This document shows, piece after piece, positions 2,269 to 29,837 of a DNA stretch of 50,368 nucleotides. Both the position numbers and the translations under genes were made by a program. Origin of the DNA: an uncultured Clostridia bacterium (GTDB lineage: Bacteria; Bacillota; Clostridia; Christensenellales; Aristaeellaceae); the NCBI GenBank assembly GCA_946407745.1, contig CAMJPQ010000021.1, positions 1 to 50,368 of the forward strand, read 5' to 3'. The notes beneath the pieces were generated by a model. The model was given only the letters and a program-made list of their open reading frames with translations, did no database searches and had not been told where the DNA came from. Within the stretch, counting starts at the first letter, position 1, and the number at the start of each line of letters is the position of its first letter.

Positions 2269-2313
2269 TCATAGAGCCCTCCCGGCCGGGCCAAAGACCG
2301 GGAGAAAGGATGA

Positions 2314-2787: not shown

Positions 2788-2801
2788 AGGAGGAAAGAAC
2801 A

Positions 2802-3092: not shown

Positions 3093-3106
3093 AAGGAGAA
3101 AAGAAC

Positions 3107-3502
3107 ATGCTTCACAATTTTGTACCGGCAGAACGCAAGACCAATGTCAGTTATGATTTGACCTTCTGGTATGACGATGACAGAGAAAGGGGATTCTGCT
3201 TCCCCTGTGACCGCTTTGGCAAGGTCCTTCCGATCCAGTATGAGGAAGCCCGACAGAACTATGAGAACTGCATGGCACACCCGGATCAGTTCAAGGTCTT
3301 CGCGGAGGTTCAAAAGTACGTAAACGACTACACCGAACCGGCACACGGAACCTGCAGCTGCGGTGAGGAGGTTGAGCTTTACGATCAGTACTGCGGCGCC
3401 TGCCAGTGCCCGAAATGCGGGCAGTGGTACAACCTGTTCGGGCAGAGCCTGGTCCCGCCTGAGTACTGGGAGCACGATCCGGCAGAGGAAGAATACTGGT
3501 GA
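3107..3502 (+). CDS. Zinc-ribbon protein of unknown function
   Basis: 131 residues starting at the ATG at 3107 with AAAGGAG ahead; the ORF opens at 3089, but that start has no ribosome binding site. The C-terminal third contains CSCG, CGAC and CPKCG, four Cys pairs or near-pairs typical of a zinc ribbon. The N-terminal part is acidic and aromatic. Probably a small protein or nucleic-acid binding adaptor; the role is unknown. Confidence 0.6.
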   Translation: MLHNFVPAERKTNVSYDLTFWYDDDRERGFCFPCDRFGKVLPIQYEEARQNYENCMAHPDQFKVFAEVQKYVNDYTEPAHGTCSCGEEVELYDQYCGACQCPKCGQWYNLFGQSLVPPEYWEHDPAEEEYW

Positions 3503-3515
3503 GGGGGAACGGAAC

Positions 3516-3632
3516 ATGAAGATGATTCAGATGATCCGGAAGGCAGTCGCAAGGCTGCTTCCCACCGGATGGGCAGACGAGATGGCGATCGGCATGGCGG
3601 CAGCGTTCGCCGATCAGGCAAGGGGATTCTGA
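3516..3632 (+). CDS. Hypothetical 38-residue protein
   Basis: Short frame from the ATG at 3516 with GAGGGGGAA ahead, ending at 3632, 16 bases before the next gene. The product is helical and amphipathic (KMIQMIRKAVARLLP, then MAIGMAAAFADQARGF). Position, spacing and ribosome binding site support translation, but a protein this short cannot be assigned. Confidence 0.4.
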   Translation: MKMIQMIRKAVARLLPTGWADEMAIGMAAAFADQARGF

Positions 3633-3648
3633 GAAAGGAGACAGCAAA

Positions 3649-3855
3649 ATGACAGTTTACGATTTCCTGTACGTGTTCAACGATGATATGGAGGTTGTCC
3701 GGATCTATGACACCCGGACGGAGGAAGAGGTCTTCGCCGGAACGATCCGGGATGCCATGTACTGCGACTATGAGGGCTATGAAGTTGACGGCGTGGATCT
3801 GGACCGAGACGGGATGATCATCACGATCGAGACCGATGAGGAGGCTGAAGAATGA
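3649..3855 (+). CDS. Hypothetical acidic small protein
   Basis: 68 residues, strongly acidic, ending in ETDEEAEE, with AAAGGAGA before the ATG. It overlaps the next gene by 4 bases (ATGA), which indicates translational coupling. No domain is recognised. Confidence 0.6.
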   Translation: MTVYDFLYVFNDDMEVVRIYDTRTEEEVFAGTIRDAMYCDYEGYEVDGVDLDRDGMIITIETDEEAEE

Positions 3856-4208
3856 GCAGAGATTGGACGAAAGAAGAGATCCAGGCCGCGTCTGAGGCCA
3901 TGCAGTCAATGGGGCACATGAGCTATGAGACCTTCTGTAAGGAGCTCGATGCATCTCATAAAATCCAGCGGTTTGCCCCTTTGCAGAGAAAATACCACTG
4001 GCCGTGCCCACGCTGCGGACGCTGGGTGATGAACAGCGATCCGGCACGGAACGCACTCAGCCGGAGAGCGGAGATCTACATCTGCGACCAGTGCGGGACG
4101 GAAGAGGCTCTGGAAGATTTCATCGGCAAGATCAGACCGCTGGCGTCCTGGGACATCGCCAAGCAGGAAGACTGGCCACTTGGAGCGGCGGAGGCAGAAG
4201 ATGAATGA
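3852..4208 (+). CDS. Small zinc-ribbon protein
   Basis: 118 residues. WPCPRCGRW at about residue 50 and ICDQCGTEEA at about residue 77 form a CxxC-CxxC zinc ribbon. The N-terminal half is helical. It overlaps its neighbours at both ends. Function unknown; zinc ribbons of this type occur in many small proteins of clostridial phages and elements. Confidence 0.65.
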   Translation: MSRDWTKEEIQAASEAMQSMGHMSYETFCKELDASHKIQRFAPLQRKYHWPCPRCGRWVMNSDPARNALSRRAEIYICDQCGTEEALEDFIGKIRPLASWDIAKQEDWPLGAAEAEDE

Positions 4209-4449
4209 CAGCCTCCGGGAACAGGACCCCATCGGCCGGTTTGAGATCATGTGCGAGAAGTACATCGACGGGAACGAGAGGATCCGGAACACGATCCTCT
4301 CCGCTCTTTCTCCGGAGGATCAGCAGACGTTCCTGATCGGCGTCGGCCTGTACCGGCTCTTCACTGACCAAGCATACTACAGAGCTGTCCGGGATGCGCT
4401 CGGGGAACAGATCTGGAAGGAGATGCACCCGGGCAAAGTCGTTCCGTGA
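4201..4449 (+). CDS. Hypothetical helical protein, last of the accessory operon
   Basis: 82 residues from the ATG at 4201, which overlaps the previous stop by 8 bases and has GGCGGAGG-like bases ahead; the longer frame from 4180 would have no better site. Helical, charged, no known domain. A terminator follows at 4514. Confidence 0.55.
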   Translation: MNDSLREQDPIGRFEIMCEKYIDGNERIRNTILSALSPEDQQTFLIGVGLYRLFTDQAYYRAVRDALGEQIWKEMHPGKVVP

Positions 4450-4513
4450 GGTGACGTCCCGTTACTTGCATTTGTGGCCAAAGCTGTGATATAAGTACAA
4501 TCGAATTCGAATC

Positions 4514-4549
4514 AAGGCACTGCAGTTCGCCCCTGCGGTGCCTTTTTCA
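4514..4549 (+). terminator. Rho-independent terminator after the accessory operon
   Basis: Stem of 12 bp (AAGGCACTGCAG with CTGCGGTGCCTT, one G-T pair), 7-base loop, then TTTTT. A possible promoter (TTGCAT, 18 bases, TATAAG at 4466-4495) precedes it; if real, transcripts of the next operon would pass through this terminator. Confidence 0.8.
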
Positions 4550-4582
4550 TGCCCGGGAAGGAGGATAGACCAGAACACGCAG

Positions 4583-4626
4583 CTCCTTTGAGTATCGCCG
4601 CCTCATGGCGGAAACATCAAAGGAGG
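4583..4626 (+). promoter_or_regulatory. Leader hairpin that hides the ribosome binding site of the 4635 gene
   Basis: CTCCTTTGA (4583-4591) is the exact complement of TCAAAGGAG (4617-4625), which contains the Shine-Dalgarno sequence of the gene starting at 4635. Inside it a second stem CCGCC/GGCGG (4598-4602 with 4607-4611) closes a TCAT loop. This nested structure would block translation unless opened. That is a prediction from base pairing; the trigger is unknown. Confidence 0.6.
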
Positions 4627-4709
4627 AATCACTCATGTTTTCAGAATTGAAAACGAAAGTCAGGCAAAACCCACAGCTCTACTATTCGCTGAGTATCGCC
4701 GCCTCATGG
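4589..4709 (+). repeat. 20-bp direct repeat linking leader and coding region
   Basis: TGAGTATCGCCGCCTCATGG occurs at 4589-4608, inside the leader hairpin, and again at 4690-4709, inside the coding region of the membrane protein, 101 bp apart. It is either a partial duplication or two copies of one RNA or DNA binding element. Confidence 0.7.
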
Positions 4710-5624
4710 GCCGGTGCCGGATCCCTGATGAACTCCACAACGTTGGCCAACACGTTGGGCGTGTTGCCATCGTTGATCTGGTGTATCTTCAACACGCTGG
4801 CCTGCATTGTCTTCGGCGTCATCATCTGGAAGCTCCCGACCGTCAGAGAGGTCATGCGGACACGGCTCTGCAGAATCATCCTGGCTGCGTTCAGCATTTT
4901 CCAGATCTGGCTCTGCATGACGGCCATTCAGGAGGCCTGGGCCGGGACGCCGGTCGGAGAACTCGGCGGAAGGATTCTCACCTATGCGGTGACAGTCATC
5001 TTCATTGTCGCTCTGTACCGGAGAGGCATTCTGGCCAACATCATCACCGACAACGGCGGCATGTATCTAATCTACGCTCTGGTGCTGGTGTTATCCGGCG
5101 TTTCGCTGGCCAAGACCGGATTCAGCTTTGACGGACTGAGCCTCGGCGTGGAGAACGTTCCACAGGGCCTGTACAAGGGCTTCCTGCTGCTGCCGGGACC
5201 GTTCACATATCCGTACTTCTTCAAGTTGATCGACTACAACGAGCAGAACGATGAATCCGTCCGGGAAGTGAACATCACCAATGCCTTCATCTTCGGAGGC
5301 CTTGGGTTCGGCCTGTACCTGATCTTCGCCTTCTCCCTGATCTTCACGACGGTATCACCGGCACTGAACATCTGCAAGGCGGTGTTGCTGTCTGTTCTGG
5401 CCATCTCTTCACTTTCCTCGTTCGTCTACTCTGAATTTGCCGTGTTCGGCAAGAACGTCGGCCTCGGGATCAACCTCTTTGCCCTGGTCTTCTGGCAGTT
5501 CGTGGCGCCGCTCGGCGTGATGGGTGTTTGGACCCTGATGGCGGAATCCCGGGTATGGCTGATTGTCGGCATGCTTGTCTGGGCGCTCGGCCTGCGCCTC
5601 TCCCGAAAGAGGGTGAGCGCATGA
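4635..5624 (+). CDS. Multi-pass inner-membrane protein heading the PAPS-reductase/ParB operon
   Basis: 329 residues with about nine hydrophobic segments, spaced from residue 14 to the C-terminus. The first (SIAASWAGAGSLMNSTTLAN) weakly recalls the first helix of sodium:solute symporter-like proteins, but no transport motif can be confirmed. The ATG at 4635 is used because AAAGGAGG lies 8 bases ahead; an ATG at 4605 sits in the loop of the leader hairpin with no ribosome binding site. It overlaps the next gene by 4 bases, so its function is probably tied to the PP-loop and ParB-like proteins that follow, perhaps as a transporter or membrane anchor. Confidence 0.7.
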   Translation: MFSELKTKVRQNPQLYYSLSIAASWAGAGSLMNSTTLANTLGVLPSLIWCIFNTLACIVFGVIIWKLPTVREVMRTRLCRIILAAFSIFQIWLCMTAIQEAWAGTPVGELGGRILTYAVTVIFIVALYRRGILANIITDNGGMYLIYALVLVLSGVSLAKTGFSFDGLSLGVENVPQGLYKGFLLLPGPFTYPYFFKLIDYNEQNDESVREVNITNAFIFGGLGFGLYLIFAFSLIFTTVSPALNICKAVLLSVLAISSLSSFVYSEFAVFGKNVGLGINLFALVFWQFVAPLGVMGVWTLMAESRVWLIVGMLVWALGLRLSRKRVSA

Positions 5625-6403
5625 AAAGAGTGCTCGGAAGTAAGCATTCCACCAAAAATGAGGACTGGCTTGCAGCAGTCGCTCAGATTGAGGATCTGAT
5701 CACGTTCGATGAGGTGGAAGAGCTGACGGCAAAAGCCGCAGCGCGGATCCTCGCCGCGACCAGAGGGAAGCATGTCGCCTATGCCTACAGCGCAGGGAAG
5801 GACAGCATCGTCCTCTCGTCAATTCTGAACAGGCTGGATATCAAGGAAGGATACTTCGCCTATTGCGACCTTGACTATCCGGCGTTTATATCCTGGGTGC
5901 TTCAGAATCGCCCAGAAGGGGTAACCATGATGCACACCGGCTATGGCTTGCCATGGCTGGCAGAGCATCAGGAGCTGATCTTTGCCAGAGGCCCTGTCGG
6001 GCAGCGCTGGCACCAGATCAGCCAGAAGGGCCCGTTCACCAGCATGATCTTCGATCACGGCCTTGACCTCCTGATCCTTGGCCACAGGGTCATCGACGGG
6101 AATGTCTGCGGCAAGGACGGATTCATCCGGAAGAAAACCGGGGAAATCCGGTTCAATCCTCTGTACGACTGGCCGCATGAAGCGATTCTCGGGTACATCC
6201 ACTATCACCGTCTGGCGCTGCCGCCGATCTACGGATGGAAGGACGGATACACCCAGGGCACACACGCATGGCCGGAGCGGGACTACTGCAATTCCCTGAA
6301 TCAGGGGTACCGTGAGGTCTGGGACATCGATCACACGGTCATCGAGAAGGCGGCGGAGTACATCCCGTCTGCACGATCCTTCCTTGAGGGGGTGAGTGCA
6401 TGA
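5621..6403 (+). CDS. PAPS-reductase-like PP-loop protein (first copy)
   Basis: 260 residues from the ATG at 5621. The PP-loop, SAGKDSIVLSS, at about residue 55 is the ATP-binding signature of adenine nucleotide alpha-hydrolases and PAPS reductases. A later PLYDWPHEAILGYI fits the conserved C-terminal part. The family activates or cleaves adenylated sulfur compounds, and relatives such as DndC act in DNA phosphorothioation. The Cys motif of true PAPS reductases is not visible, so sulfate reduction itself is doubtful. It overlaps both neighbours by 4 bases (ATGA). About 17% of its length separates it from the second copy in size (260 against 375 residues). Confidence 0.8.
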   Translation: MKRVLGSKHSTKNEDWLAAVAQIEDLITFDEVEELTAKAAARILAATRGKHVAYAYSAGKDSIVLSSILNRLDIKEGYFAYCDLDYPAFISWVLQNRPEGVTMMHTGYGLPWLAEHQELIFARGPVGQRWHQISQKGPFTSMIFDHGLDLLILGHRVIDGNVCGKDGFIRKKTGEIRFNPLYDWPHEAILGYIHYHRLALPPIYGWKDGYTQGTHAWPERDYCNSLNQGYREVWDIDHTVIEKAAEYIPSARSFLEGVSA

Positions 6404-7017
6404 CCATCACCAGAATTCCGCTGGAGAAGCTGAGCCCGAATCCGAGGAACGTGCGCCGGCATTCTCAGAAGCAGATGGAGGAGTACAAACGCTCTGTGGA
6501 GAAGTTCGGCCAGACGAAGCCGATCCTGTGTGACGAAGGCTATGTGATCCTGATCGGCAACGGTCTGTATCAGGCAATGCTCGAACTCGGCCTGAAGGAA
6601 GCAGACTGCTATGTTCGGACGGATCTCTCCGAGAAGGACAAGCTGAAGCTCATGATGGCTGACAATAAGGTGTATGAACTCGGCGTCACCGACATGAGCG
6701 CCATCGATGAGATCATATCCAGCCTTGACGGGGATTTCGACATTCCCGGGTATGATGACAGCCTGCTTGAGATGCTGCAGATGTCAACCAGGGAAGTCTC
6801 TGACCTTGTGATGGACTACGGCAAGGTGGAGATCCCGGAGGCAAAGCCGGAACCGGAGCCGCCGGCAGAGTACTACACCAACAATCAGTTGAATGGCCAG
6901 AATCCCTATGCTGCAGCGCAGAGCCCTCAGATGATTCAGCCGAGTGCGCCGGAGAACGGTGATGGGGACAGAAAGTTCCTCGTCTGCCCGAAGTGCGGTG
7001 AGCGGATATGGCTATAA
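6400..7017 (+). CDS. ParB-like domain protein with C-terminal zinc ribbon
   Basis: 205 residues. The N-terminus (IPLEKLSPNPRNVRRHSQKQ, then SVEKFGQTKPIL and VILIGNGLYQAML) follows the ParB/sulfiredoxin-like fold, with the usual nucleotide-binding box degenerate (GNGLYQA instead of a GxxR-type box). A Pro/Glu-rich linker leads to a short end with CPKCGERIW, half of a zinc ribbon. It overlaps both PP-loop genes. Such ParB-like proteins often accompany PAPS-reductase-like proteins on mobile elements; biochemical role unknown. Confidence 0.7.
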   Translation: MTITRIPLEKLSPNPRNVRRHSQKQMEEYKRSVEKFGQTKPILCDEGYVILIGNGLYQAMLELGLKEADCYVRTDLSEKDKLKLMMADNKVYELGVTDMSAIDEIISSLDGDFDIPGYDDSLLEMLQMSTREVSDLVMDYGKVEIPEAKPEPEPPAEYYTNNQLNGQNPYAAAQSPQMIQPSAPENGDGDRKFLVCPKCGERIWL

Positions 7018-8135
7018 GGAAGTATGAGTCCGCAGTCGATGTTGTGACTGCTGCCAAGCAGAGGATCCGGAACGCCTTCGAAACAGGGGCGAATGTGAAT
7101 CTGAATTTCTCGTCCGGGAAAGACAGCCTGTGCATGTCCCATCTCACCTATGAACTCTGCAGAAACGGAGAGGTGGATCGGAAGCGCCTGAAGGTGATCT
7201 TCATCGATGAGGAAGGGATCTATCCTTCCATGGTGGAAGCCGCAGAACGCTGGCGGAAGAAGTTCATGTCGATCGGCGTCCCGTTCCTCTGGTTCTGCCT
7301 GCCCTTCAAACAGGTATCGGTGATCGACAGCCTGTCACAGGGCGAGTCCTGGATCACATGGGATCCGAACGCAAGGGACCGGTGGATGCGTGAGCCGCCA
7401 CCGTATGCGATCATGTACCACGAAGGGCTTTCCTATCCGGGAGAGATGAACTACCAGACGTTCTGCTCAAATGAGTTCGGGAAGCGTGGAGACCTTCAGC
7501 TGATCGGTGCCAGGACATCGGAATCGTTCACCCGTCTCCGCTCTGTCGCGTACAGGACTCCGGAAAACCGGAAGATCTGGCCGATCTATGACTGGCTGGA
7601 TTCCGACGTGTGGCTGTACATCAAGGAGCATAACCTTGAGTTCCCGGAAATCTACATGAGACTGTATGAGGCCGGGGCAACCAAGCGGAATCTCCGGCTG
7701 TGCGCGTTCTTCGGTGAGGGCGGAACCCAGGGCCTGCACCGGATCGCTGAGACGGATCCAGAACTGTGGGACAAGATCTGCAAACGGGAACCAAATGCAG
7801 AGCTGGCCATGCTGTACTGGGATTCTGAGATGTTCAACCGCTCCACTCGGAAGAGGCGAGAGCTTGAGGCCGGACAGCCTGAGGTGGATTACCGGGCAAA
7901 GCTGGAGGATCTGCTGTTCCATAACACCGGAGCCTATCGGATCAACAAGGACACGCTCAACAAACTGAATGCCTGGCGGAATCTGTACAAGAGGTTCTAC
8001 TTTGCCATCACGCCAGATCGCTGCAAGGAGATGTACGAAACACTCATCTTCGGTGACCCGAAAGGCAGAATGCTCGTGACGATGCACATGAAGATCACGA
8101 GCGACTACAGGGAGGCGGTTGACAATGGCAGGTGA
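7008..8135 (+). CDS. PAPS-reductase family protein, IbrA-like (second copy)
   Basis: 375 residues. The PP-loop FSSGKDSLCMS lies near residue 36. DLQLIGARTSESFTRLRSVA and IYDWLDSDVWLYI match the GxRxxES and YDW-x-DSDVW patterns of the PAPS-reductase family. Length and pairing with a following ParB-like gene resemble IbrA, a protein first described as a co-activator of prophage gene expression in Escherichia coli. Start 7008 overlaps the preceding gene by 10 bases. Whether it acts on DNA, RNA or a small molecule cannot be seen. Confidence 0.8.
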   Translation: MAIRKYESAVDVVTAAKQRIRNAFETGANVNLNFSSGKDSLCMSHLTYELCRNGEVDRKRLKVIFIDEEGIYPSMVEAAERWRKKFMSIGVPFLWFCLPFKQVSVIDSLSQGESWITWDPNARDRWMREPPPYAIMYHEGLSYPGEMNYQTFCSNEFGKRGDLQLIGARTSESFTRLRSVAYRTPENRKIWPIYDWLDSDVWLYIKEHNLEFPEIYMRLYEAGATKRNLRLCAFFGEGGTQGLHRIAETDPELWDKICKREPNAELAMLYWDSEMFNRSTRKRRELEAGQPEVDYRAKLEDLLFHNTGAYRINKDTLNKLNAWRNLYKRFYFAITPDRCKEMYETLIFGDPKGRMLVTMHMKITSDYREAVDNGR

Positions 8136-8655
8136 GATGAATCTGTTTGCTCCGCTGGGATCTCTGCAGTGGGTTGACCGCACCATGCTGCATGCCAACG
8201 ACTACAACCCGAACAAGGTCAGCGAGGAGAACCTTCGGCTCCTGACGCAGTCCATCCTGACCAACGGATGGACGCTTCCGATTGTGGTTCGTCCGGACTA
8301 CACCATCATTGACGGCTTCCACCGCTGGACAGTCTCAGGGCGTGAGCCACTGCTGTCGAAGCTGGGCGGCAAGGTGCCTGTGGTCATTGTCGATCACCAC
8401 GGCGATGAGTCTGCCGACGTGTACGGCACGATCACCCACAACCGTGCGCGTGGTACCCATCTGCTGGAACCGATGAAGGCCATCGTTAAGAAACTCCTGG
8501 CAGAAGGAAAGTCTGTACAGGAGATCGGGAAGGAGCTGGGCATGAGGCCGGAGGAAATCTTCCGCCTGTCCGGATTCACCCGTGATGAGTTCCTTGACCT
8601 GATGACCGAGGATCACGCCAGCTACAGCAGAGCGGTTATCTACAAGAAGATGTGA
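8125..8655 (+). CDS. ParB-like protein, IbrB-like
   Basis: 176 residues from the ATG at 8125, with GGGAGGCGG ahead, overlapping the preceding gene by 11 bases. The domain VLHANDYNPNKV-like start, then TNGWTLPIVV, TIIDGFHRWTVS and the C-terminal HTH-like stretch SVQEIGKELGMRPEEIFRLSG fit the ParB/Spo0J N-terminal fold as found in IbrB. Here the GFHR box is intact, unlike in the ParB-like protein at 6400-7017. IbrB works together with IbrA; the same pairing is seen here. Confidence 0.8.
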   Translation: MAGEMNLFAPLGSLQWVDRTMLHANDYNPNKVSEENLRLLTQSILTNGWTLPIVVRPDYTIIDGFHRWTVSGREPLLSKLGGKVPVVIVDHHGDESADVYGTITHNRARGTHLLEPMKAIVKKLLAEGKSVQEIGKELGMRPEEIFRLSGFTRDEFLDLMTEDHASYSRAVIYKKM

Positions 8656-8665
8656 GGTAGTCAGC

Positions 8666-8839
8666 ATGAAGGACACAGAGAGGATTCCGGTTTACATCCG
8701 AATAGTGAACGGCAAGACTGTCTGTGTCTGCCATGCTTCCCATCCAATGTGCGACGGCAGGTGTGAGCGGGACATGGTGACCCGAGATATCTTCCGGGGG
8801 TGGCAGTCCACCATGCGCCGCAACAGGTACGGGCAATGA
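8666..8839 (+). CDS. Small Cys-rich protein
   Basis: 57 residues starting at the ATG at 8666 (GAGGTAG ahead). CVCHASHPMCDGRCERD in the middle is a likely metal-binding site with five Cys and one to two His. Its stop overlaps the start of the HNH gene (ATGA), so the two are coupled. Function unknown. Confidence 0.5.
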   Translation: MKDTERIPVYIRIVNGKTVCVCHASHPMCDGRCERDMVTRDIFRGWQSTMRRNRYGQ

Positions 8840-9177
8840 GGGCAGGCTACCATCCAGCCATGCCTGACCGTGGCGGCACCCTGAAGGAGCAGGGCTTCTA
8901 CAAGACACCAGCCTGGAGAAGAATCAGACAGCAGGCGCTGCAGAGAGACCACTACATCTGTCAGCTGCGTCTGTCCTCTCGCTGTACTGGCATAGCAACA
9001 GAGGTTCACCACATCCAAGAGCTGGAGTCCAGACCTGACCTCGGTCTGTCCCTGGACAACCTGACGTCATGCTGCTGGTATTGCCACGAAGAAACCAAGA
9101 CAAGGAAGTCGAAGCCAAAGACAATCTCAGGTGTGAGAGTCATCAACATCACCGACGGAAGCGACGATGAGAGCTGA
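8836..9177 (+). CDS. HNH endonuclease upstream of terminase
   Basis: 113 residues from the ATG at 8836. The core has two Cys-containing knuckles (ICQL-like and CCWYCHEE), VHHIQELESRPDLGLSLDNL and a final HEETK: the HNH beta-beta-alpha metal fold. HNH proteins next to TerS/TerL in HK97-type phages take part in specific DNA cleavage during packaging. Its position directly before the terminase genes supports this role rather than homing. Confidence 0.85.
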   Translation: MRAGYHPAMPDRGGTLKEQGFYKTPAWRRIRQQALQRDHYICQLRLSSRCTGIATEVHHIQELESRPDLGLSLDNLTSCCWYCHEETKTRKSKPKTISGVRVINITDGSDDES

Positions 9178-9376
9178 CGAAACCATCGCAGCGACGTTTC
9201 CGGGGGCGTCCGGCCTCGGTCGGAGGGTACCCCCCAACCCTTTCGGGCCGAAAATAGACTGGAAATGACCGCGCGCCCTCGTTAATTCGTACCGAGACCA
9301 TATTTTCCAGACAATTTTTTCCAAGGAAGCACAACCAATAATTACAGAAAAATGTTCACAGAAAGGAGAGATTGCC
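9178..9376 (+). other. Non-coding gap between HNH and TerS, candidate cos region
   Basis: 199 bases without a gene. It contains GGGTACCC (9225-9232) flanked by G and C runs, and the pair CTCGGT/ACCGAG (about 9215 and 9292). In many HK97-type phages of Gram-positive bacteria cos lies next to the HNH/terminase genes and is GC-rich. That this is cos is inference from position and composition only. Confidence 0.35.
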
Positions 9377-10018
9377 GTGAATTTTGAAAAAAATGCCCAA
9401 ATTGAAGTAAAAATGCCCATCGAAAATGCCGTTGACGAAGCGTCAAATGAGTTGGCGGAGCGTCAAGTCTTCGCTGAAAGGCTCAGAGCAGCCAGAAATA
9501 AAGCGGGATGGACATCTCAAAAGCTTGCGGAATCCCTTTTTGTGGATATCAGCACTGTTTCAAAATGGGAAAGCGGGGAGAGAGAACCGGGATTAAAAGC
9601 AGTTGCAGATATTGCTGCAAAGCTTGATGTTCCTGCTGACTATTTGCTTGGCCTGACAGACTCTGATGGTTCATCCCAGAATCTCAGTATCAATGACAGA
9701 GCGAAGGCGATCATTGCAAAAGCACGAGATAAGGGCGATGAGCAGGCACTCTTCTTTGAGACAACCTTTTCCAGATATATCGAGCAGATAGCTCTGCTCA
9801 AGAAGCTGAAATCGGCTATAGACGACAACGGTGTACTCATCCCGAAGAAAAACGTGAAGGGCGACAACAATCTCGTTTCGAATCCGGCTCTGAAGGACTA
9901 TGTCGCAGTCAGTGCACAGGCAAACGATACCGGAAAGCTCCTGATCAGATTTGTTCAGGAACCGCTGGAGGATGACTCCGAAAAGGACGAACTTGAGCTG
10001 TTTCTGTCCGGGAGGTGA
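9377..10018 (+). CDS. terS: P27-type small terminase subunit fused to an XRE HTH domain
   Basis: 213 residues starting with GTG at 9377, well placed after AAAGGAGAG. Residues about 30-95 form a typical XRE helix-turn-helix (RLRAARNKAGWTSQKLAESL, then ISTVSKWESGEREPGL). The C-terminal part (YIEQIALLKKLKSAID, VLIPKKNVKGDNNLVSNPAL) matches the P27 small-terminase pattern. Small terminases recognise phage DNA for packaging; here the HTH may provide DNA binding in place of the usual domain. It overlaps the large-terminase start by 4 bases. Confidence 0.75.
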   Translation: MNFEKNAQIEVKMPIENAVDEASNELAERQVFAERLRAARNKAGWTSQKLAESLFVDISTVSKWESGEREPGLKAVADIAAKLDVPADYLLGLTDSDGSSQNLSINDRAKAIIAKARDKGDEQALFFETTFSRYIEQIALLKKLKSAIDDNGVLIPKKNVKGDNNLVSNPALKDYVAVSAQANDTGKLLIRFVQEPLEDDSEKDELELFLSGR

Positions 10019-11730
10019 ATCTCCAGGTGATACCAAGTACCGTGAGAGCTACACTGGCCTATCGGTATGCGGAGGATGTCATATCCGGAAAGATCGTATC
10101 CGGAAAGAAACGGAAGCAGGCGTGCCAACGATTCATCGACGAGCTGGAGCAGTCCTACACGGATCCGCACTATCCATGGGCATATGACATCAAAAAGGCC
10201 AATGAGCCGATAGAATTCCTCGAAAGATTCCTTATTCCGACCAAGGGAGCGTATTCGAAGACGGAATTACTCCCTTGGCAGCATTTTGTGGAATCGAACA
10301 TGTACGGCTGGATCTCAAGAAAGACCGGCTACAGGCGATTCCGTGAATCGCTGATCGTTGTCGGCCAAGGCAACGGCAAGAGCACCATGATCGCTGGCAA
10401 TGCTGCCTATGGTCTGATTGCAGACAAGGAGAGGGGAGCAGAAATCTACGCCCTTTCCAACTCGCGAGAGCAGGCCAGAATCGTCTTTTCCGAGTGTGCA
10501 GCCCAGATCGAAGGCTCTCCTGCTTTGGCGAAACATGTTCAGATCACACAGAGCGGCTGTTATTTCGGAAACTCGAAGTTTGAACCGCTGGCTTCTGACT
10601 CCAAGAACCTTGACGGCAGAAACGTCCACATGGCCGTCTTCGACGAGATCCATGAATTCCGGGACTACAAGCTCATCAACGTCATCAAGGGCAAGATCAA
10701 GAAGCGCAAGCAGCCCATGATCATCTATATCACCACCCTGGGAACCGTCATCGACGGTCCCTTGATGGATTTCTACGTCCTCGGCAGTCAGATTCTGGCC
10801 GGGGACGCTGCTATTTCCAAACGTGCGGCAGACCGCATGTTTGTCTACATTGACGAGATCGACGAAGATGACGACCCGACCAATCCGGAATGCTGGCCGA
10901 AAGCAAACCCGTCGCTCGGGAAACTCTTGGACATCGAAGATCTGAAGGATGAATGGGAGCGCGTGAAAACCATCCCGGCAGAGCGGGCCAACTTCATCAA
11001 CAAACAGCTGAATGTGTTCACTTCGGTGGATGAATTGAGCTTTTTGGACGTCAAAACCATCAAAAAGAACAACAAAACCTTCCCAGAAGAGGAACTGGCC
11101 GGTCGAATCTGCTACGGAGGCTTCGACCTTTCCAGCACGGAAGACTTCACGTCGGCCTGCCTGGAATTCCCGCTGCCGGACAACAACTTCTTCGTCCTGT
11201 CCCATTCGTGGACGACGGAGAAGAAGATGAACCTCGACCATGAGAAGCTCGACTGGCAGTTCCTGATCAACCAGGGCGTGCTGACGATCTGCCCCGGTGA
11301 GTACGTGGATTACAACTATGTGGTGAACTGGTTCCTGAAAATGAGGGAAAAGTACCGCATCGAGACGGTCGGATATGACCCGGCCAAGGCTTACATGATG
11401 ATTCAGAGCATGACGGAGAAGGGCTTCATCCTCAGTGAGGTCCGGCAGGGCGAGATCACGCTGACCGCGCCGCTGGACGATCTGAAGGAGCGGTTCCTCG
11501 ACGGGAACATCATCCATAACAATAACCCCATGTTCAACTGGTACCTGGGGAATGTAAAGCTGACCAAACGGTCGGCAAACGGCACGTATCTGCCCACAAA
11601 GCAGTCCGTGTACCGCAAAATTGACGGTTTCGCGGCCTTTCTGGACGCCCATACGGAGTATCTGCGGAAGCATCCGCTGTACATCCCGGAGGACAGAAAG
11701 CTGACAACCGTACTCAGTCTGCAGAGGTGA
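10015..11730 (+). CDS. terL: Large terminase subunit
   Basis: 571 residues, a usual length. The ATPase P-loop, VVGQGNGKST, is at about 115-124 and the Walker B, VHMAVFDEIHEF, at about 203-214. The nuclease domain begins with GGFDLSSTEDFTS at about 368, giving the first metal-binding Asp. It is the packaging motor and cutter of HK97-type phages. The GTG start overlaps the terS stop in GTGA; GGGAGG is in front. Confidence 0.95.
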   Translation: MNLQVIPSTVRATLAYRYAEDVISGKIVSGKKRKQACQRFIDELEQSYTDPHYPWAYDIKKANEPIEFLERFLIPTKGAYSKTELLPWQHFVESNMYGWISRKTGYRRFRESLIVVGQGNGKSTMIAGNAAYGLIADKERGAEIYALSNSREQARIVFSECAAQIEGSPALAKHVQITQSGCYFGNSKFEPLASDSKNLDGRNVHMAVFDEIHEFRDYKLINVIKGKIKKRKQPMIIYITTLGTVIDGPLMDFYVLGSQILAGDAAISKRAADRMFVYIDEIDEDDDPTNPECWPKANPSLGKLLDIEDLKDEWERVKTIPAERANFINKQLNVFTSVDELSFLDVKTIKKNNKTFPEEELAGRICYGGFDLSSTEDFTSACLEFPLPDNNFFVLSHSWTTEKKMNLDHEKLDWQFLINQGVLTICPGEYVDYNYVVNWFLKMREKYRIETVGYDPAKAYMMIQSMTEKGFILSEVRQGEITLTAPLDDLKERFLDGNIIHNNNPMFNWYLGNVKLTKRSANGTYLPTKQSVYRKIDGFAAFLDAHTEYLRKHPLYIPEDRKLTTVLSLQR

Positions 11731-11734
11731 GGAA

Positions 11735-13063
11735 ATGAGTATCTTTACAGCCCTCAGGGAGAGGCGCAGGCAGCGCATCATCACGAAATACCTGAATTCA
11801 CAGGGATCCGCTCTGACCGTCAGGCCGAAAAGCACATGGATTCCGCACTGGCTGAGAGGGGACTACACCCTGAAGAACAGCGAACTGATCTTCGCGGCGG
11901 TGTCCAGAATCTCAAACAGCCTCGCATCCATGCCGATCCAGCTGTATCAGGGGTCAAAACCGGTGTACAACGGCCTGAATGACCTGGTTGCCTTCTCCCC
12001 GAACCCGCTCATGACCTCTTCTCAGTTCTTCCGGAGCATGGAGGCCTGCAGAGGGACCGCCGGAAACTGCTACGCCCTGAAGGTGTACCAGCCGGGAGAC
12101 GATGTGCCGAGGCTTGAGCTTCTGGACCCGACCAGGGTGCAGCCGATCATCGAGAAGACCTCCAAGGAACTCTGGTGGAGGATCCAGCCGGACGAAGGGC
12201 CGGAAATGTTTGTGCATGATTTCTACATGATCCACGTTCCCTTCATTTCCACCAACGGAATTGCAGGCATTTCGCCGGTTTCGGTGCTCTTCAACACCCT
12301 GAAATACTCCGACAACATCCAGGAATTCAACGTGAAGCAGCTGGAACAGGGCGTGAACAGCGCCATCGTCCTGGAGGCTCCGGCCAACCTTGGCAAAGAT
12401 CAGAAGGCGGCCATGATCGAGGACTTCATGTCCACGTACCGCGAGACCTCCGGAAACATTCTCCTGTTGGAGTCAGGCGTGACAGCCAAGACGCTGAACC
12501 TCAGCCCGGTGGATTCCATGCTGTTTGAGGTCGAAAAGATCACCAGAAGCAAGGTTGCCATGGTCTACAACATCCCTCCGCACCTGCTGGGGGACTATTC
12601 CGAGGCCAACACCGCCTCTCAGGAACAGGTGATGCTGGAATTCCTGACCCTGACCATGCTCCCGATCGTGAGGGCCTATGAGCAGGAGCTTGACCGGAAA
12701 CTGCTGACTGCCACCCAGAGACGGAGCGGGCTGCACTGGCGCTTCGACATGGACGCCGTGCTGAGAGCGGATGCAGCCACCATGGCCGAGGTCCATTACA
12801 AGGCCGTGCGTTCCGGCTGGATGACGCCGGATGAGATCCGGTTCTCCAGAAATATGCCCGCCCTGCCGAAAGGCGTGGGCAAGTGGGCTCTGGTGTCTCA
12901 GGATCTGGCCACGCTGGACTATACCGTGAACGACAAGCCGAAGGTCCTGATGCGCGGAGTCAATGAGGAAGGCAGCGGCGACAGCTCCGGAGGATCCGGA
13001 GGCCAGACGCAGAGCCAGTCTCAGACGCAGACGGAAACGGAGGGCGGAAATGGAGGCGCTTGA
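11735..13063 (+). CDS. Portal protein, HK97 type
   Basis: 442 residues. NSELIFAAVSRISNSLASMP, the RGTAGNCYALKV region and the later YNIPPHLLGDYSEANTASQEQ are characteristic of the HK97-type phage portal family. The portal forms the dodecameric ring at one capsid vertex through which DNA is pumped by the terminase encoded just upstream. The C-terminus is low-complexity, rich in Ser, Gly, Gln and Thr (residues about 410-442). Confidence 0.95.
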   Translation: MSIFTALRERRRQRIITKYLNSQGSALTVRPKSTWIPHWLRGDYTLKNSELIFAAVSRISNSLASMPIQLYQGSKPVYNGLNDLVAFSPNPLMTSSQFFRSMEACRGTAGNCYALKVYQPGDDVPRLELLDPTRVQPIIEKTSKELWWRIQPDEGPEMFVHDFYMIHVPFISTNGIAGISPVSVLFNTLKYSDNIQEFNVKQLEQGVNSAIVLEAPANLGKDQKAAMIEDFMSTYRETSGNILLLESGVTAKTLNLSPVDSMLFEVEKITRSKVAMVYNIPPHLLGDYSEANTASQEQVMLEFLTLTMLPIVRAYEQELDRKLLTATQRRSGLHWRFDMDAVLRADAATMAEVHYKAVRSGWMTPDEIRFSRNMPALPKGVGKWALVSQDLATLDYTVNDKPKVLMRGVNEEGSGDSSGGSGGQTQSQSQTQTETEGGNGGA

Positions 13064-25112: not shown

Positions 25113-26219
25113 ATGAACATCAACAGAATCCCTGTCGCGTTCTACGGGAAGCGGCGGGTCGTTGCTCCTGAAATCAGTTACAAGTACAACCAGAAGCAGG
25201 TGCTTGAGATTCAGGGGTTCTACGGCCTGCCGGAGTATTTCCGCGTAGACTTCGCGAACGAGGGAGACGCGCTGGCAAAATCCGTGATCGGGACGCCGGA
25301 CGGCATCGAGATCCCGGACGAATACCTCCTGACGGGGAAGGCCATCAAGGTCTACATCGTTCTTGGCGGTCCGGATGAATCCATCCAGACGGTGGCGGAG
25401 ATCGACATCCCGGTCAGAGGGCGGTTGCCAGTATCGGAAGAAACTCCGACTCCGGAGGAACGGAGCATCATCGACGAGCTGATTGCAGCGCTGAACGATG
25501 GTGTCGAGAGGGCCGAGACGGCTGCGGACGAAGCGGAACAGCACGAAGCGGGAGCGGAATCCGACGCCCTGAAGGCTGAAGGCTATGCCTCCGGCACCCA
25601 GGGCGGGCAGGCGGTTGAGGAAGGTTCCGACTACTACCACAACAACGCCGCGTACTTCGCCGGTCAGGCCGGCGCATCCGCAACGGCGGCAGGAGAAGCC
25701 CAGACCGCAGCAGAGACCGCACAGGGCAAGGCCGAGACGGCGCAGGCCGGGGCCGAACAGGCAAAAGAGGACGCTCAGGCGATTGTTGACGGTGCGGTGG
25801 CCACGGTCAATCAGGCAAGGGACGCTGCCGTACAGACTGTACAGCAGGAGGGCGCCACCCAGACGGCGAATGCCAGAGCGCAGGCGGAAGCCGCGGCAAG
25901 GTCGGCAAGCGCGTCGGCCGAGTCGGCAGATGACGCAGCTGCGGCGAAAACAGCGGCTGAAACCGCTCAGGGCGCTGCCGAGACCGCTCAGGGGAAGGCT
26001 GAGACCGCGCAAGGGGCTGCGGAGGACGCCCAGGAGGCGGCAGAAACAGCACAGGAACTGTCCGAACGGGCACAGGCGGCTGCGGAAGAGGCGGCAAGGC
26101 AGGCCGGTGAGCGAGTCGGCATGATCCACGACATCGACAATCAGAAATACTATTCCGTTTCTCAGGAAGTCCGCAACGGATTTCTGGTGGAAACCTTTAC
26201 GGAGGTGCAGAATCCATGA
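25113..26219 (+). CDS. Baseplate upper protein / tail fibre stem with coiled-coil repeats
   Basis: 368 residues. The N-terminal 110 residues form a beta domain (VAFYGKRRVVAPEISYKYNQ, then KAIKVYIVLGGPDESIQTV) like the BppU N-terminal domain that attaches fibres to baseplates. Residues about 115-345 are Ala/Glu/Gln-rich helical repeats with AETAQGKAETAQ units, a trimeric coiled-coil stem. The C-terminal 25 residues are again structured. Its stop overlaps the start of the DGR target gene (ATGA), so the two are made together and the target is probably carried at the tip of this stem. Confidence 0.75.
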   Translation: MNINRIPVAFYGKRRVVAPEISYKYNQKQVLEIQGFYGLPEYFRVDFANEGDALAKSVIGTPDGIEIPDEYLLTGKAIKVYIVLGGPDESIQTVAEIDIPVRGRLPVSEETPTPEERSIIDELIAALNDGVERAETAADEAEQHEAGAESDALKAEGYASGTQGGQAVEEGSDYYHNNAAYFAGQAGASATAAGEAQTAAETAQGKAETAQAGAEQAKEDAQAIVDGAVATVNQARDAAVQTVQQEGATQTANARAQAEAAARSASASAESADDAAAAKTAAETAQGAAETAQGKAETAQGAAEDAQEAAETAQELSERAQAAAEEAARQAGERVGMIHDIDNQKYYSVSQEVRNGFLVETFTEVQNP

Positions 26220-27892
26220 GCGATATTACCAGAACCAGACCGAATGCCGATCAGATGGACCGCCTGATCGAAAATGTGAAGGCTGTGGCGGATGCGGTCT
26301 ACGCAGAGAGCGACATGAGCTTTCTGGCCATGCTGGATGAGAGCAACTACAAGACCACAATGAAGAAGTGGTTCACTGCCCATGGCGCCGCCGCCATGAC
26401 GGACCTGACGGCCCTGTGCGACAAGTGGTACACTCTGACCCGGACGGGATTCTACGGAGGCGTCCGCTTCAATCAGCCGGTGGAGGGCGAGAGCATGAGC
26501 TCTGACGGCACCAGAACCGGCGACTGCGTGGGCAAGACCTGCGTCCCCTCCACGGAGACGGTGGCGGGGCAGGATGACTTCGCCGGGATTCCGCTCTTCG
26601 CCCCGATGGACTGCAACGTCTATCTGGATGAGGACGGAAAACCGCACATCACGGCCATCGACGGCATTGCCGGAGGCTTTGAGCGGTACAACGAGAGCCG
26701 GATCGTCGGCGTTCTGCAGATGACCGGCTGGGTGAAGTTCGTGGACGATTCCTCCGGATGGGGCATCGACTACACCGACAATATCGGGATGCCGGGATTC
26801 CATCCTCTGCCGGAAGCGGTGGATCTGGACGGCACGGTCCGGACCTGGGTGGTTCACGGCAAGTACGGATTCGGCGACAACTGGTCCTGCTGCAGCGGCG
26901 TGAAGACCAAAGTCTGGAACGTCAGCCACAACACCCAGCTCACCGGCGTACACAATCAGTGGGGCAACCGGTACTGCGGCGGAACGAGCGCGGATGACGC
27001 CTTCATGAAGATCATGCTGTGGCTGAAGTACGCGCAGCTGGATTCCGACCGGGTCATGCACGGATGCAACAACTACAACTATGAGTATCAGCCCGCCCTG
27101 GCTGAGACCGGCGTGGAGCGCATCCTCCTCACCACGGCACAGGCGGCGAACCTTGTCGTCGGCAGTGCGGTGGTTCTGGCGGCGTCCAAACGTGCGCAGA
27201 GCAATGTCGTTGACCGCTGCAAGATTACCAAGATCGAGAACGTAGAGATCGGCGGCACGACCTACGGCGCCGTGTATGTGGACAACGGCGGCGTGACCTT
27301 CGACACCACCACGGAGCTGTGGCTCTCCACCATCGAGTGGTGGAGCGGCAGCACCGACAATATTCTTGGCAATGACGGCGGCATCAATCCGGCTTCGGAC
27401 AAGTACCCGGTCAAGATCCAGGGCATCGAATACATGGTCGGCTGCTACGAGGTCATGGGCGACACGATTCTGGACGTCGCGGAGATTGACGGCGTGGAGT
27501 GCCAGGTGGCCAAGGTCTGCAGGGACGCCACGAAGCTGGCAACCTCGGTGACGGCCAACTACATCACCGCCGGGTACGGTGTGCCGAGACCGGCAACTGC
27601 CGGATGGACCTGGGCCAAGCGGATGGGCTTTGACAGTAACCTTCCGGAAGTCCTGATCCCGTCCGTGACGGGGGCCAGTTCGTCCACGGGAACCAGAGAC
27701 GGTTTCTATGAAGAGGCGATCGGCGCAACCGGCCTCCGAGAGTGGCGGCGCTTCGGCCACCTGAACAGCGGTTTGGCGAACGCCGGCTTGTCTTGCGGCA
27801 TCGGCAGCGACGGGCTCGGGACCGCGACCTGGTCCATCGGCGGGCGCCTTTCCGTCACCGGAAACAGGGGTGAATTTCAGGCGGCCGCCTAA
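26216..27892 (+). CDS. DGR target protein: diversified receptor-binding tail tip
   Basis: 558 residues. The N-terminal region is helical, the middle is beta-rich, and the C-terminal 110 residues resemble C-type-lectin-like DGR targets (RDGFYEEAIGATGLREWRRF, then GHLNSGLANAGLSCG). The last about 35 codons before the tail end are the variable repeat. Residues 515, 518, 521, 529, 531, 532, 536, 538, 540 and 545 differ from what the template would encode. The product probably contacts the host receptor. ATGA overlap with the fibre stem gene couples translation. Confidence 0.85.
   Translation: MSDITRTRPNADQMDRLIENVKAVADAVYAESDMSFLAMLDESNYKTTMKKWFTAHGAAAMTDLTALCDKWYTLTRTGFYGGVRFNQPVEGESMSSDGTRTGDCVGKTCVPSTETVAGQDDFAGIPLFAPMDCNVYLDEDGKPHITAIDGIAGGFERYNESRIVGVLQMTGWVKFVDDSSGWGIDYTDNIGMPGFHPLPEAVDLDGTVRTWVVHGKYGFGDNWSCCSGVKTKVWNVSHNTQLTGVHNQWGNRYCGGTSADDAFMKIMLWLKYAQLDSDRVMHGCNNYNYEYQPALAETGVERILLTTAQAANLVVGSAVVLAASKRAQSNVVDRCKITKIENVEIGGTTYGAVYVDNGGVTFDTTTELWLSTIEWWSGSTDNILGNDGGINPASDKYPVKIQGIEYMVGCYEVMGDTILDVAEIDGVECQVAKVCRDATKLATSVTANYITAGYGVPRPATAGWTWAKRMGFDSNLPEVLIPSVTGASSSTGTRDGFYEEAIGATGLREWRRFGHLNSGLANAGLSCGIGSDGLGTATWSIGGRLSVTGNRGEFQAAA
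27748..27852 (+). repeat. DGR variable repeat (VR)
   Basis: 105 bases aligned without gaps to the template repeat at 28023-28127 (offset 275). There are 12 differences, all at template adenines: 28033, 28043, 28051, 28076, 28082, 28084, 28097, 28103, 28108, 28109, 28123 and 28127. The adenine-free stretch GGCGGGCGC at 27839-27847 is identical and is the likely initiation site for mutagenic homing. The last one or two differences may already belong to the boundary. Confidence 0.9.
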
Positions 27893-27907
27893 GCGGACGA
27901 CTGAAAG

Positions 27908-27982
27908 AGGGGGCAACGCCCCCTAACCAAAACCGGCGTCAGCCGGTCGCAAAAATTTGACAAAATCCGGCCTTCGGGCCGG
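27908..27982 (+). other. Three stacked hairpins between VR and TR
   Basis: AGGGGGC-AAC-GCCCCCT (27908-27924), ACCGGC-GTCA-GCCGGT (27932-27947) and CCGGCC-TTCG-GGCCGG (27967-27982). The last is a C(UUCG)G tetraloop, the most stable RNA type. In the Bordetella phage DGR a hairpin behind VR raises homing efficiency. The same function here is inference; they could also be terminators, but only short T-rich or A-rich stretches follow. Confidence 0.65.
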
Positions 27983-28022
27983 TGGGGATTGATCATGCAT
28001 CCGCTGGTGGTCTGTGGTGGCT

Positions 28023-28127
28023 GCGCTTCGGCAACCTGAACAACGGTTTGACGAACGCCGGCTTGTCTTGCGGCAACGGCAACAACGGGCTCGGGAACGC
28101 GAACTGGAACATCGGCGGGCGCATTTA
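28023..28127 (+). repeat. DGR template repeat (TR)
   Basis: The non-mutated donor copy of VR. It contains 24 adenines, mostly in ten AAC codons, 8 of which are altered in VR. AAC codons are the classic DGR choice because adenine mutation gives many residues and no stop. The TR is non-coding in function, although its frame is open into the reverse transcriptase frame. Confidence 0.9.
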
Positions 28128-28149
28128 TGGATTGAGTGACACACAAAAA

Positions 28150-28245
28150 GGGGCGGAAGCCCCACGCATGGTCAGTTCCTCGCTGCGGCGAAAATGTGTC
28201 GTTCCGGCACCGGGGACAGCCCCTGAAATTGAAGCTGCTCCCCGG
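28150..28245 (+). ncRNA. Structured spacer of the DGR template RNA
   Basis: Between TR and the reverse transcriptase start lie a GGGGC-GGAA-GCCCC hairpin (28150-28163, GNRA-like loop) and a longer stem: CCGGGG (28210-28215) with CCCCGG (28240-28245), continued by CAGC (28217-28220) with GCTG (28234-28237). In studied DGRs the RNA downstream of TR is needed for cDNA priming. That the same holds here is inference; ends of the RNA are unknown. Confidence 0.55.
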
Positions 28246-28338
28246 GGCCATGCGGGATATCTGCGCATGGTCGGGCTTAGTAGATGGAACCGAAAGGCCC
28301 TGAGATTCAAAAAGACTGAGCCGTCAGGAGAGGACGAT

Positions 28339-29523
28339 ATGAAAACATACTGCAGAAATATCGACCCTTCTGATGTAAAAACTATCGAACCCTTTGTGTG
28401 GGACTGCATCAGGCCGAAGCTGAAGCGGAAGGACTACAGTGATTTCGTTTCACGGTACTGCGACCTGACGGATCGGGAGATCCGGGAAAACGCCCGGCAT
28501 GGATACGGACTCTATCCGGACATGGAACGGGCAGTTCGTAACATCTCCCTGGACATTTCCCTTCGAATCCGGCAGAAGGATCTGCAGCTGGACCCGATCC
28601 GGTATTCCACACGCACGGACGGACTGAGCAAGAAGACCAGAGTCATCGGCGTGGAAAGCGTCATGCAGCAGATCATGGAGCACGTGGCCGTCGGCTGCAT
28701 GAAGGAACTGTGGACTGCAAAGTATGAGTATCACCAGTACGCCAGCATCAAGGGCCGTGGCCAGCTGAAGGGCGTGAAGGCCATCCAGAAATGGACGAAG
28801 AAGGGCAAGACGAAGTATTTCGTCAAGCTTGACGTCCGGAAGTGCTTTCAGAGCCTGAAGCGGGAGATGGCCATGCGCTGGCTACGGCGGGACATCGGAA
28901 AGAATGCCCTGCTGCTGTGGTTTGTGGACGCTCTTCTGCAGATGCACGGTGACGGCCTGGTGATCGGCAGTCTCCTCAGTCAGTTCCTGTGCAACTATTT
29001 CCTGTCCTACGCCTACCGGTATGTCATGAGCCTGTGCAAGGAGCGGCGAGGCAAGCGGATGAAGCTTGTGAGCTGCGCCCTGTTCTACATGGATGACATT
29101 CTGCTCACCGGCGTGGACCGTCGCAATCTGGTGATGGCTGTCCGGAAGATGATCAAATTCATGCTGAAGGAATTTGGCCTCACGGTGAAACCGGACTGGC
29201 ACGTCCGGAAGCACACAGACTGCGGCATCGACATGATGGGCTATGTGGTCACGGCAAAAGGCCGGATCAAGATCAGGCCGAGGGTGTTCATCCGGGCAAG
29301 GCGGGCGTTCGTCCGCTCCGCCAGGGGAGACAACCGGCTGAAGATGCAGACCAGAGTGTCGGCCTATTACGGATTCTTCAAGGCGGCGAGGATCCGCCAC
29401 TTTGAGACCGTGAAGGAGAAGGGAGCCGAAAAGGGAACGGTGATACAGATTTTGGAGATCCAGAAAAAGGCATCAAGCATCATTTCAAACGAAGCGAGGA
29501 GGAATTTGTCATGCGCAGCGTGA
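28339..29523 (+). CDS. DGR reverse transcriptase
   Basis: 394 residues from the ATG at 28339, with AGGAGAGGA ahead. KYFVKLDVRKCFQSL holds the first catalytic Asp, GSLLSQ at about 210-215 replaces the QGxxxSP motif of other reverse transcriptases and is typical of DGR enzymes, and FYMDDILLTG (YMDD about 250-253) is the catalytic centre. It copies the template RNA with errors at adenines to make mutated cDNA for the VR. The frame is open upstream to 27982, across TR, but that longer start is unlikely. No Avd accessory gene is seen nearby. Confidence 0.95.
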   Translation: MKTYCRNIDPSDVKTIEPFVWDCIRPKLKRKDYSDFVSRYCDLTDREIRENARHGYGLYPDMERAVRNISLDISLRIRQKDLQLDPIRYSTRTDGLSKKTRVIGVESVMQQIMEHVAVGCMKELWTAKYEYHQYASIKGRGQLKGVKAIQKWTKKGKTKYFVKLDVRKCFQSLKREMAMRWLRRDIGKNALLLWFVDALLQMHGDGLVIGSLLSQFLCNYFLSYAYRYVMSLCKERRGKRMKLVSCALFYMDDILLTGVDRRNLVMAVRKMIKFMLKEFGLTVKPDWHVRKHTDCGIDMMGYVVTAKGRIKIRPRVFIRARRAFVRSARGDNRLKMQTRVSAYYGFFKAARIRHFETVKEKGAEKGTVIQILEIQKKASSIISNEARRNLSCAA

Positions 29524-29837
29524 GCACGTCCGCTGAGAAACAGCGGGACATTGAGATCCTTGTCGGGGAAGAGGTCACCCAGATCTATCTCCGGACGGAT
29601 CACCGGGAAGTGGAAGACACCGAAGAGGGAATGACCGGCACCCACTGGGAGTGCGAGGAGGCGTTCATGGCCTGCCCGACGGATGAGGCCCCGACGGCGG
29701 AGGAGATCGAGGAGGCCTTTGAGGACTGGTTCGACTATGCCGCAGAGTGGACGGCCCCGAAGCAGAAGAACCTTGCCCAGCTGCAGGCGGACATTGAGTA
29801 CATCGCCGCGATGACCGGCGTGGAACTGGAGGCGTAA
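29511..29837 (+). CDS. Tail-module hypothetical protein
   Basis: 108 residues, acidic, start overlapping the reverse transcriptase end by 13 bases with GAGGAGGAA ahead. It does not look like Avd (which is a basic helical-bundle protein). Its position before XkdX suggests a tail or tail-fibre associated protein common in such modules. Residues 65-105 are helical (EEIEEAFEDWFDYAAEWTAP). Confidence 0.6.
   Translation: MRSVSTSAEKQRDIEILVGEEVTQIYLRTDHREVEDTEEGMTGTHWECEEAFMACPTDEAPTAEEIEEAFEDWFDYAAEWTAPKQKNLAQLQADIEYIAAMTGVELEA

Follow-up and report, generated by a model that had tools for sequence, protein, structure and literature searches.

A phage diversity-generating retroelement in a Clostridia genome, and relatives whose template repeats probably carry a group I intron

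Introduction

Is the cassette of repeats and reverse transcriptase (RT) on contig CAMJPQ010000021.1 of an uncultured Clostridia bacterium (GenBank assembly GCA_946407745.1) a diversity-generating retroelement (DGR) that rewrites a phage gene, and what do its relatives reveal about the RNA from which such an element is copied? The window analyzed here is the entire contig (C21; 50,368 bases), from a genome of 3.77 Mb in 194 contigs. We hold with high confidence that it carries a DGR recently active in a phage. In four relatives the template repeat (TR) is interrupted, and we read it there as a split RNA gene: a group I ribozyme would excise itself before the RT copies the template, and would never enter the hypervariable gene. 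To this reading, taken jointly with the view that the intron has been gained and lost quickly, we give a probability of roughly 0.78. Relatives are referred to by locus handles (L007 and so on) where needed.

Results

The repeats and the reverse transcriptase

The core of the element comprises three features:

27742-27852, + strand: variable repeat (VR), the 27748-27852 of the initial annotation plus six bases
28017-28127, + strand: TR, uninterrupted in the window
28339-29523, + strand: DGR-type RT, 394 amino acids, identified by Pfam, PHROG, motifs and structure match

The VR (27748-27852) and TR (28023-28127) align without gaps over 105 bp, and every one of the 12 mismatches falls on a TR adenine. 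Thus 12 of 24 template adenines differ and none of the 81 other bases (hypergeometric P 1.4e-9), confirming the adenine-only pattern reported in the initial annotation. The repeat extends leftward by six bases per copy, to 27742 and 28017. This brings in a single non-A mismatch (27747 G versus 28022 T) just outside the previously drawn edge, so that over all 111 bp the repeats differ at 12 A and one other base. It is the longest direct repeat listed for the window (110 nt). In the target frame, the TR translates as RFGNLNNGLTNAGLSCGNGNNGLGNANWNIGGR and the VR as RFGHLNSGLANAGLSCGIGSDGLGTATWSIGGR; asparagine (Asn) codons are therefore mostly affected.

The RT gene has an intact frame from the ATG at 28339 to its end at 29523. 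Its product matches RVT_1 in Pfam (E 9.7e-15) and phrog_1423 in PHROGs (E 2.7e-49) and contains IGSLLSQ and YMDD, in agreement with the RT with GSLLSQ and YMDD initially placed after the repeats. Two group II RTs show QGAVISP at the IGSLLSQ position, and we take IG...SQ (motif 4) to be a mark of DGR RTs. The closest solved relative is 8ub7 (E 2.7e-14), titled just ‘Reverse transcriptase’, which we take to be the enzyme of the BPP-1 DGR; the next is the group II maturase 6me0 (5.3e-6). Placement in the DGR clade had been proposed as a check. In a 19-row tree the window RT does group with the DGR rows, and the two group II RTs stand apart from the 17 others, but these two, the only outgroup, are near-identical and the test is a weak one.

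Probable recent activity in the window and its relatives

Searches with the RT recovered 18 viral contigs and 5 genome contigs as relatives, and alignment then added 10 more viral contigs. A TR/VR pair was seen in 18 of the first 23. In the other five (L009, L012, L015, L018, L023) the RT begins 221-512 bases from the contig end, and L012 gave a partial pair in a later comparison. Nine of the ten later relatives have a pair, uninterrupted in every case; L060 has none. Across 17 pairs of 106 bases each, 219 of 375 adenines were changed versus 10 of 1,427 other bases. This set comprises the window, L054 and 15 of the 18, with L017 (VR deletion), L021 (changed TR) and L029 (cut pair) excluded.

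Comparisons between phages tell the same story. Of the 111 VR sites, 23 differ between the window and L007, and 23 likewise between the window and L008; upstream, the differences number 46 of 1,335 (L007) and 98 of 1,526 (L008). By hand count, 16 (L007) and 15 (L008) of the 23 lie at a template A, and the remainder track TR differences at 5 of 7 and 7 of 8 sites, respectively. The loci L055 and L056, with RTs 51% identical to that of the window, have equal TRs and no difference in 2,962 plus 5,661 bases outside the VR, while their VRs show 13 differences, all at template A. Likewise, the VRs of L020 and L021 differ at 17 sites and those of L013 and L014 at 13, all template A. The expectation that VR variation would be limited to template A, raised earlier for sequencing reads, thus held on assemblies of relatives rather than on reads. 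The companion expectation of a constant TR has an exception in L021, whose TR is also altered. L020 and L021 show one difference in ~8.3 kb outside the repeats, yet the TR (4687-4796) differs at 13 sites, each at an A of the L020 TR. This may reflect write-back of mutagenic complementary DNA (cDNA) into the TR, or else an assembly artefact in which VR variants were mixed into the TR.

Because VR changes, in the window as in its relatives, fall solely or almost solely at template A, we consider recent activity of the element very probable. A dead DGR, with the TR and VR as relics of earlier activity, would agree with the lack of a detected Avd protein. Profile search with PF22296 found no Avd in the genome that holds the window, and nothing over the cut-off in the records of five relatives (L013, L014, L025, L016, L024), with a sub-threshold match (E 0.025) within the L014 record; BPP-1, as a positive control, scores E 2.2e-37. 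The accessory search covered Avd alone. We nevertheless regard a relic as very improbable. The RT frame is intact and YMDD is present, and decay would bring non-A changes, of which there are 0 of 81 in the 105 bp and one in the longer pair; the VR has also diverged from those of L007 and L008 far more than the sequence upstream of it. The element had been described as complete: target, TR, VR, RT and a hairpin are indeed present, whereas no Avd was found, a protein that a review (PMC10053308) calls essential and reports for most known DGRs.

By analogy with the BPP-1 pathway, the recently active element would work as follows. The TR and the spacer downstream of it would be transcribed, and the RT would copy the TR RNA, misreading adenines. 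Replacement of the VR by this cDNA would then alter the 3' end of a tail-fibre-like gene, chiefly in Asn codons for a tip that is presumably lectin-like and may bind a receptor.

A probable group I intron in the template repeats of relatives

Among the 18 relatives that have a pair, four (L007, L013, L014 and L025) show a TR split into two halves at a point that is continuous in the window:

28080-28081, + strand: point corresponding to the intron site of L007, L013, L014 and L025 (183-193 nt); the window reads GGC/AACAAC, with the slash at the junction

Both TR halves match one continuous VR, which is free of the insert in all four. The inserts measure 187 nt (L007), 193 nt (L013 and L014) and 183 nt (L025) and occupy the same point, GGT/insert/AACAAC. 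All four have a P1 helix, GGU/AAGCAA(A)UUGCC, with U.G at the 5' splice site. The predicted fold comprises P1, P2 to P9, a P3/P7 pseudoknot and a terminal G, the last provided by the ...AGG with which the inserts end ahead of AACAAC. It was drawn by hand on six sequences, five of them distinct (the four TR inserts and the phage introns L169 and L170), and 93.2% of cells are paired. Both partners are changed in 23 of the 54 pairs (mean of 9.6 in shuffles, with 0 of 500 reaching this number; 3-8 in slid versions). P3 has two covarying pairs and P7 is invariant; P1 pairs less well in the gene introns L169 and L170 (80% of cells). Against Intron_gpI of Rfam (RF00028), L013 matches over its full length (37.2 bits, E 3.6e-8) and L007 at 21.6 bits (E 0.003), both below the 50-bit cut-off, and L025 gave no match at E <= 1. 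The gathering threshold was reached by no TR-insert locus, nor by five gene-borne relatives of the insert (L032, L038, L168, L174, L179).

The 3' half of the insert is also found in phage protein genes. One is L170, in which the exon downstream of the intron matches DNA polymerase III alpha (Pfam E 7.6e-7). In the five others the introns lie in one conserved phage gene, each with an intron open reading frame (ORF), and the ORF of L038 has a weak NUMOD3 match below the cut-off. The gene that hosts these five introns has in its upstream exon a D.DGD motif known from RNA polymerases, but PHROGs gives it no function.

The inserts are ~80-86% identical to one another, versus 65-75% for the RT genes (approximate values), as for an element that is mobile or strongly constrained. 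The RT of L007 is 98% identical to that of the window and its spacer 99.1%; the window TR is nevertheless continuous. Because L007 has the intron and the window does not, with RTs this similar, we suggest rapid intron turnover. Within the 18 bases to the left of the junction, the two TRs show five non-A differences, a pattern consistent with flank co-conversion on intron gain or loss.

Further split templates were sought in several ways. The TR motif gave 107 matching stretches in viral contigs, and 85 distinct contexts (L064 and above) were examined, including some relatives already counted and none of the three intron-bearing viral contigs. Among these 85, 71 had a VR partner and 14 did not, and no new split TR was found; a short left match in six is at a contig end in five and in the sixth is the VR deletion of L017. 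In that locus the VR (~1514-1616) has six bases fewer than its TR, in frame, beside the point at which kin carry the intron. The 3'-junction pattern gave 26 stretches, of which 3 are the known intron contigs, and no new case among the other 23 loci. Searching 396 genomes of the order with the intron-bearing TR of L025 (E <= 1e-8) matched only the two TR halves of the window itself; phage and plasmid records gave no match, and the intron was not found in the genome that holds the window in a search made without a positive control.

Probable splicing before copying

An indication that the intron leaves the template comes from L013 and L014. Their TR halves show 0 of 64 and 0 of 48 differences, their introns 0 of 193, and the spacer plus RT 4 of 1,410, against 13 of 112 in the VR, all at template A, 5 to the left of the junction and 8 to the right. 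VR differences that are A-only on both sides of the junction indicate that the VRs were rewritten after L013 and L014 parted, with the intron in both TRs. An unspliced template would insert the intron into the VR or rewrite the right half alone; splicing before copying is therefore likely.

The VRs could instead have been written by an uninterrupted TR elsewhere, in a co-infecting phage or a second copy, or before insertion, with the TR inserts never spliced. An uninterrupted TR does exist in the phage of the window, whose RT is so close to that of L007, and the L007 record spans just 4.4 kb. The unmet Rfam thresholds, in the intron loci as in the five gene-borne relatives, and the absence of any Intron_gpI match in L025 also lean this way. 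Conversely, no uninterrupted TR occurs in the 72-kb record of L013, the 146-kb record of L014 or the 3.4-Mb genome of L025, the fold covaries as expected of a group I intron, and Intron_gpI finds both L013 and L007. The VRs of L013 and L014 differ on both sides of the junction over identical TR halves and introns. We therefore consider unspliced inserts quite unlikely, and conclude that the TR RNA of the four cassettes probably loses a group I intron before mutagenic copying.

Group I splicing requires a U before the 5' splice site. All four intron loci have T just ahead of the junction in both TR and VR, and all 15 tabulated intron-free loci have C there in both repeats (GGC). This T is not exclusive to intron bearers: L055 and L056 have GGT and no insert. 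By residing in the template alone the intron would be protected, and its splicing might act as a checkpoint on the timing of mutagenic homing.

The hairpin and the spacer RNA

Two further elements flank the TR:

27908-27924, + strand: hairpin after the target stop codon, candidate target-recognition hairpin (7-bp stem AGGGGGC/GCCCCCT, loop AAC)
28112-28338, + strand: structured RNA supported by covariation, the last 16 bases of the TR plus the 211-nt spacer ahead of the RT

A GGGG/CCCC hairpin was picked by script in a comparable position in 20 of 25 loci, a different one in three (L026, L027, L042) and none in two (L055, L063). In the window it begins 55 bp past the VR.

The 211 bases separating TR and RT are strikingly conserved across relatives. 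RNAalifold predicts 35 pairs in the spacer; over 19 sequences, 97.5% of cells are paired and 17 of the 35 pairs have both partners changed (mean of 9.1 in shuffles, and 0 of 500 as many). The covariation score is 0.297, versus 0.144 shuffled and 0.04-0.06 slid, while the number of further pair types is unremarkable (30 versus 27.9 shuffled, reached in 61 of 500 shuffles). The 3' end of the TR is predicted to pair with the spacer through four pairs that are near-invariant and so give no covariation support. A covariance model of the region (R1) scores the window, itself part of the model, at 235.7 bits. Among 47 chosen sources (E <= 0.1) it matched the window, L086, L055, L057, L058, L059, L042 and L129, with a partial match in L061 and a weak one in L092; it found nothing in L063, the two other DGRs of the genome, BPP-1, crAssphage LMMB, LBR48 or the E. 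eligens plasmid. In Rfam, RT-18 matches weakly inside the spacer on the same strand (28235-28316); with 18.6 bits, where the cut-off is 41.3, and E values of 1.4 and 0.83, we do not accept it as the identity of the spacer.

The spacer probably serves as an RNA handle for RT binding plus the priming region of the DGR RNA. It might instead encode an N-terminal extension of the RT, or be a mere messenger RNA leader, with no role in the DGR RNA. The spacer does terminate at the RT start codon, and the RT frame of the window is open for 378 nt upstream, across the TR. Relatives do not keep this upstream frame, which spans just 9 nt in L013 and L014 and 3 nt in L016, and what is conserved in the spacer is base pairing, making this alternative unlikely next to a function in the DGR RNA. 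The open frame forms a 513-aa ORF (27982-29523); a fused TR-RT protein was rejected, as the frame is not kept in relatives.

The target gene and its surroundings

The VR lies at the end of the presumed target, and a small ORF follows the RT:

26216-27892, + strand: target gene, 558 amino acids, tail-fibre-like, with the VR at its 3' end (translation, phrog_17147)
29511-29837, + strand: small ORF, 108 amino acids, overlapping the RT end, no family found

The target matches phrog_17147, of unknown function (E 8.1e-119), and has no Pfam match. Its structure model has a mean pLDDT (predicted local distance difference test) of 64.8, with residues 509-558 below 50. The best PDB match is the DGR variable protein TaqVP (5vf4; E 0.014-0.033), and none lies below 0.001; a C-type-lectin-like VR end would agree with TaqVP as top match (E 0.014), in a part of the model with pLDDT <50. 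Viral models gave 25 matches at E <= 0.001, and 10 of these bear the name tail collar fiber protein. For the initial description of a phage tail tip that varies its receptor binding, support comes from gene order and a weak fold match, and we accordingly keep receptor binding by the target product as a suggestion. The small ORF was considered as an Avd candidate and rejected, as Pfam, PHROGs and NCBIfam gave it no family.

The window DGR belongs to a tailed phage. With 20 proteins of the window given, PHROG matches before the target include terminase, portal, major head, tape measure, virion structural and tail proteins, and the order continues from the upstream tail genes through the target and RT to an endolysin downstream, all on the + strand. 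The phage also contains a phosphoadenosine phosphosulfate reductase-like gene at 7008-8135 (phrog_2302, E 6.6e-79).

An RT search at E <= 1e-60 matched 2 of 308 genomes of the family (the genome itself and another, at 44% identity) and 1 of 396 of the order (itself). Two further DGR-like loci, each beside an RT, are present in the same genome: L001 on C51 (TR 1027-1150, VR 400-526, mismatches A-only) and L003 on C18 (TR 1006-1121, VR 756-871, mismatches 17 A and one other).

Discussion

Several points weigh against the picture of an active DGR with relatives that splice their templates. Support comes from sequence assemblies of the window and its relatives, and splicing is deduced from VR sequences over few rows, where a trans-acting template could have acted. 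The RT tree has two near-copies for an outgroup, and in NCBIfam the RT has just a group II RT match, at 57 bits below the cut-off of 300, with no DGR family recognized. Avd, described as essential and present in most known DGRs, was not found in the genome with PF22296. The target has a weak fold match and a model that is unreliable at the VR end. Against a structured spacer RNA, the window spacer alone folds in an ordinary manner (z -1.65; 12 of 200 shuffles equally good).

Weighed together with the evidence above, the element of the window itself is confirmed as an ordinary phage DGR with no Avd found and a covarying spacer. It is useful as a member of this kind in which the spacer RNA is well conserved. 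The cassettes of its kin matter more. If splicing is true, the template of a DGR can be a spliced RNA, and group I introns occupy a new kind of niche: a template, itself non-coding, from which a gene is rewritten.

A natural group I intron in a template repeat would be new if splicing is shown. No natural intron in a DGR template was found in the literature searched, by titles and abstract openings, with subscription journals thinly covered. In the accessible text of a DGR survey (PMC8144416) the word ‘intron’ occurs once, for group II introns, and in that of the review PMC10053308 it occurs 0 times.

The window element resembles the DGR of BPP-1 (mtd, TR, brt, avd) in its VR at the 3' end of the target, its TR, and an RT with IGS..SQ and YMDD. 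According to PMC3240598, BPP-1 shares the A-specific differences and a hairpin behind the VR, within 35 bp of it; that of the window is further off. BPP-1 differs in having avd, none being found in the genome of the window, and the covarying spacer of the window lineage was not detected in BPP-1 1-12000. Gut-phage DGRs with no recognised Avd, such as those of crAssphage LMMB and the E. eligens plasmid, show the same order of target and RT and the same IG...SQ motif; the spacer RNA model finds nothing in either, and Avd was not searched for in these two.

The introns of phage genes (L169, L170, L038, L168 and others) have the same core letters and fold as the TR inserts. They differ in location: the former lie in protein genes, five of them adjoining an ORF, whereas the TR introns are short, ORF-less and in a non-coding template. 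A further parallel is an experimental one. In 2008, Guo et al. reportedly engineered a td group I intron into the TR of BPP-1 and found the spliced sequence in the VR, which was taken as proof of an RNA intermediate. If splicing is true, the kin cassettes are a natural version of that intron-marker experiment: theirs was a laboratory construct, whereas here the intron occupies one TR site in phages from metagenomes and in a bacterial genome assembly.

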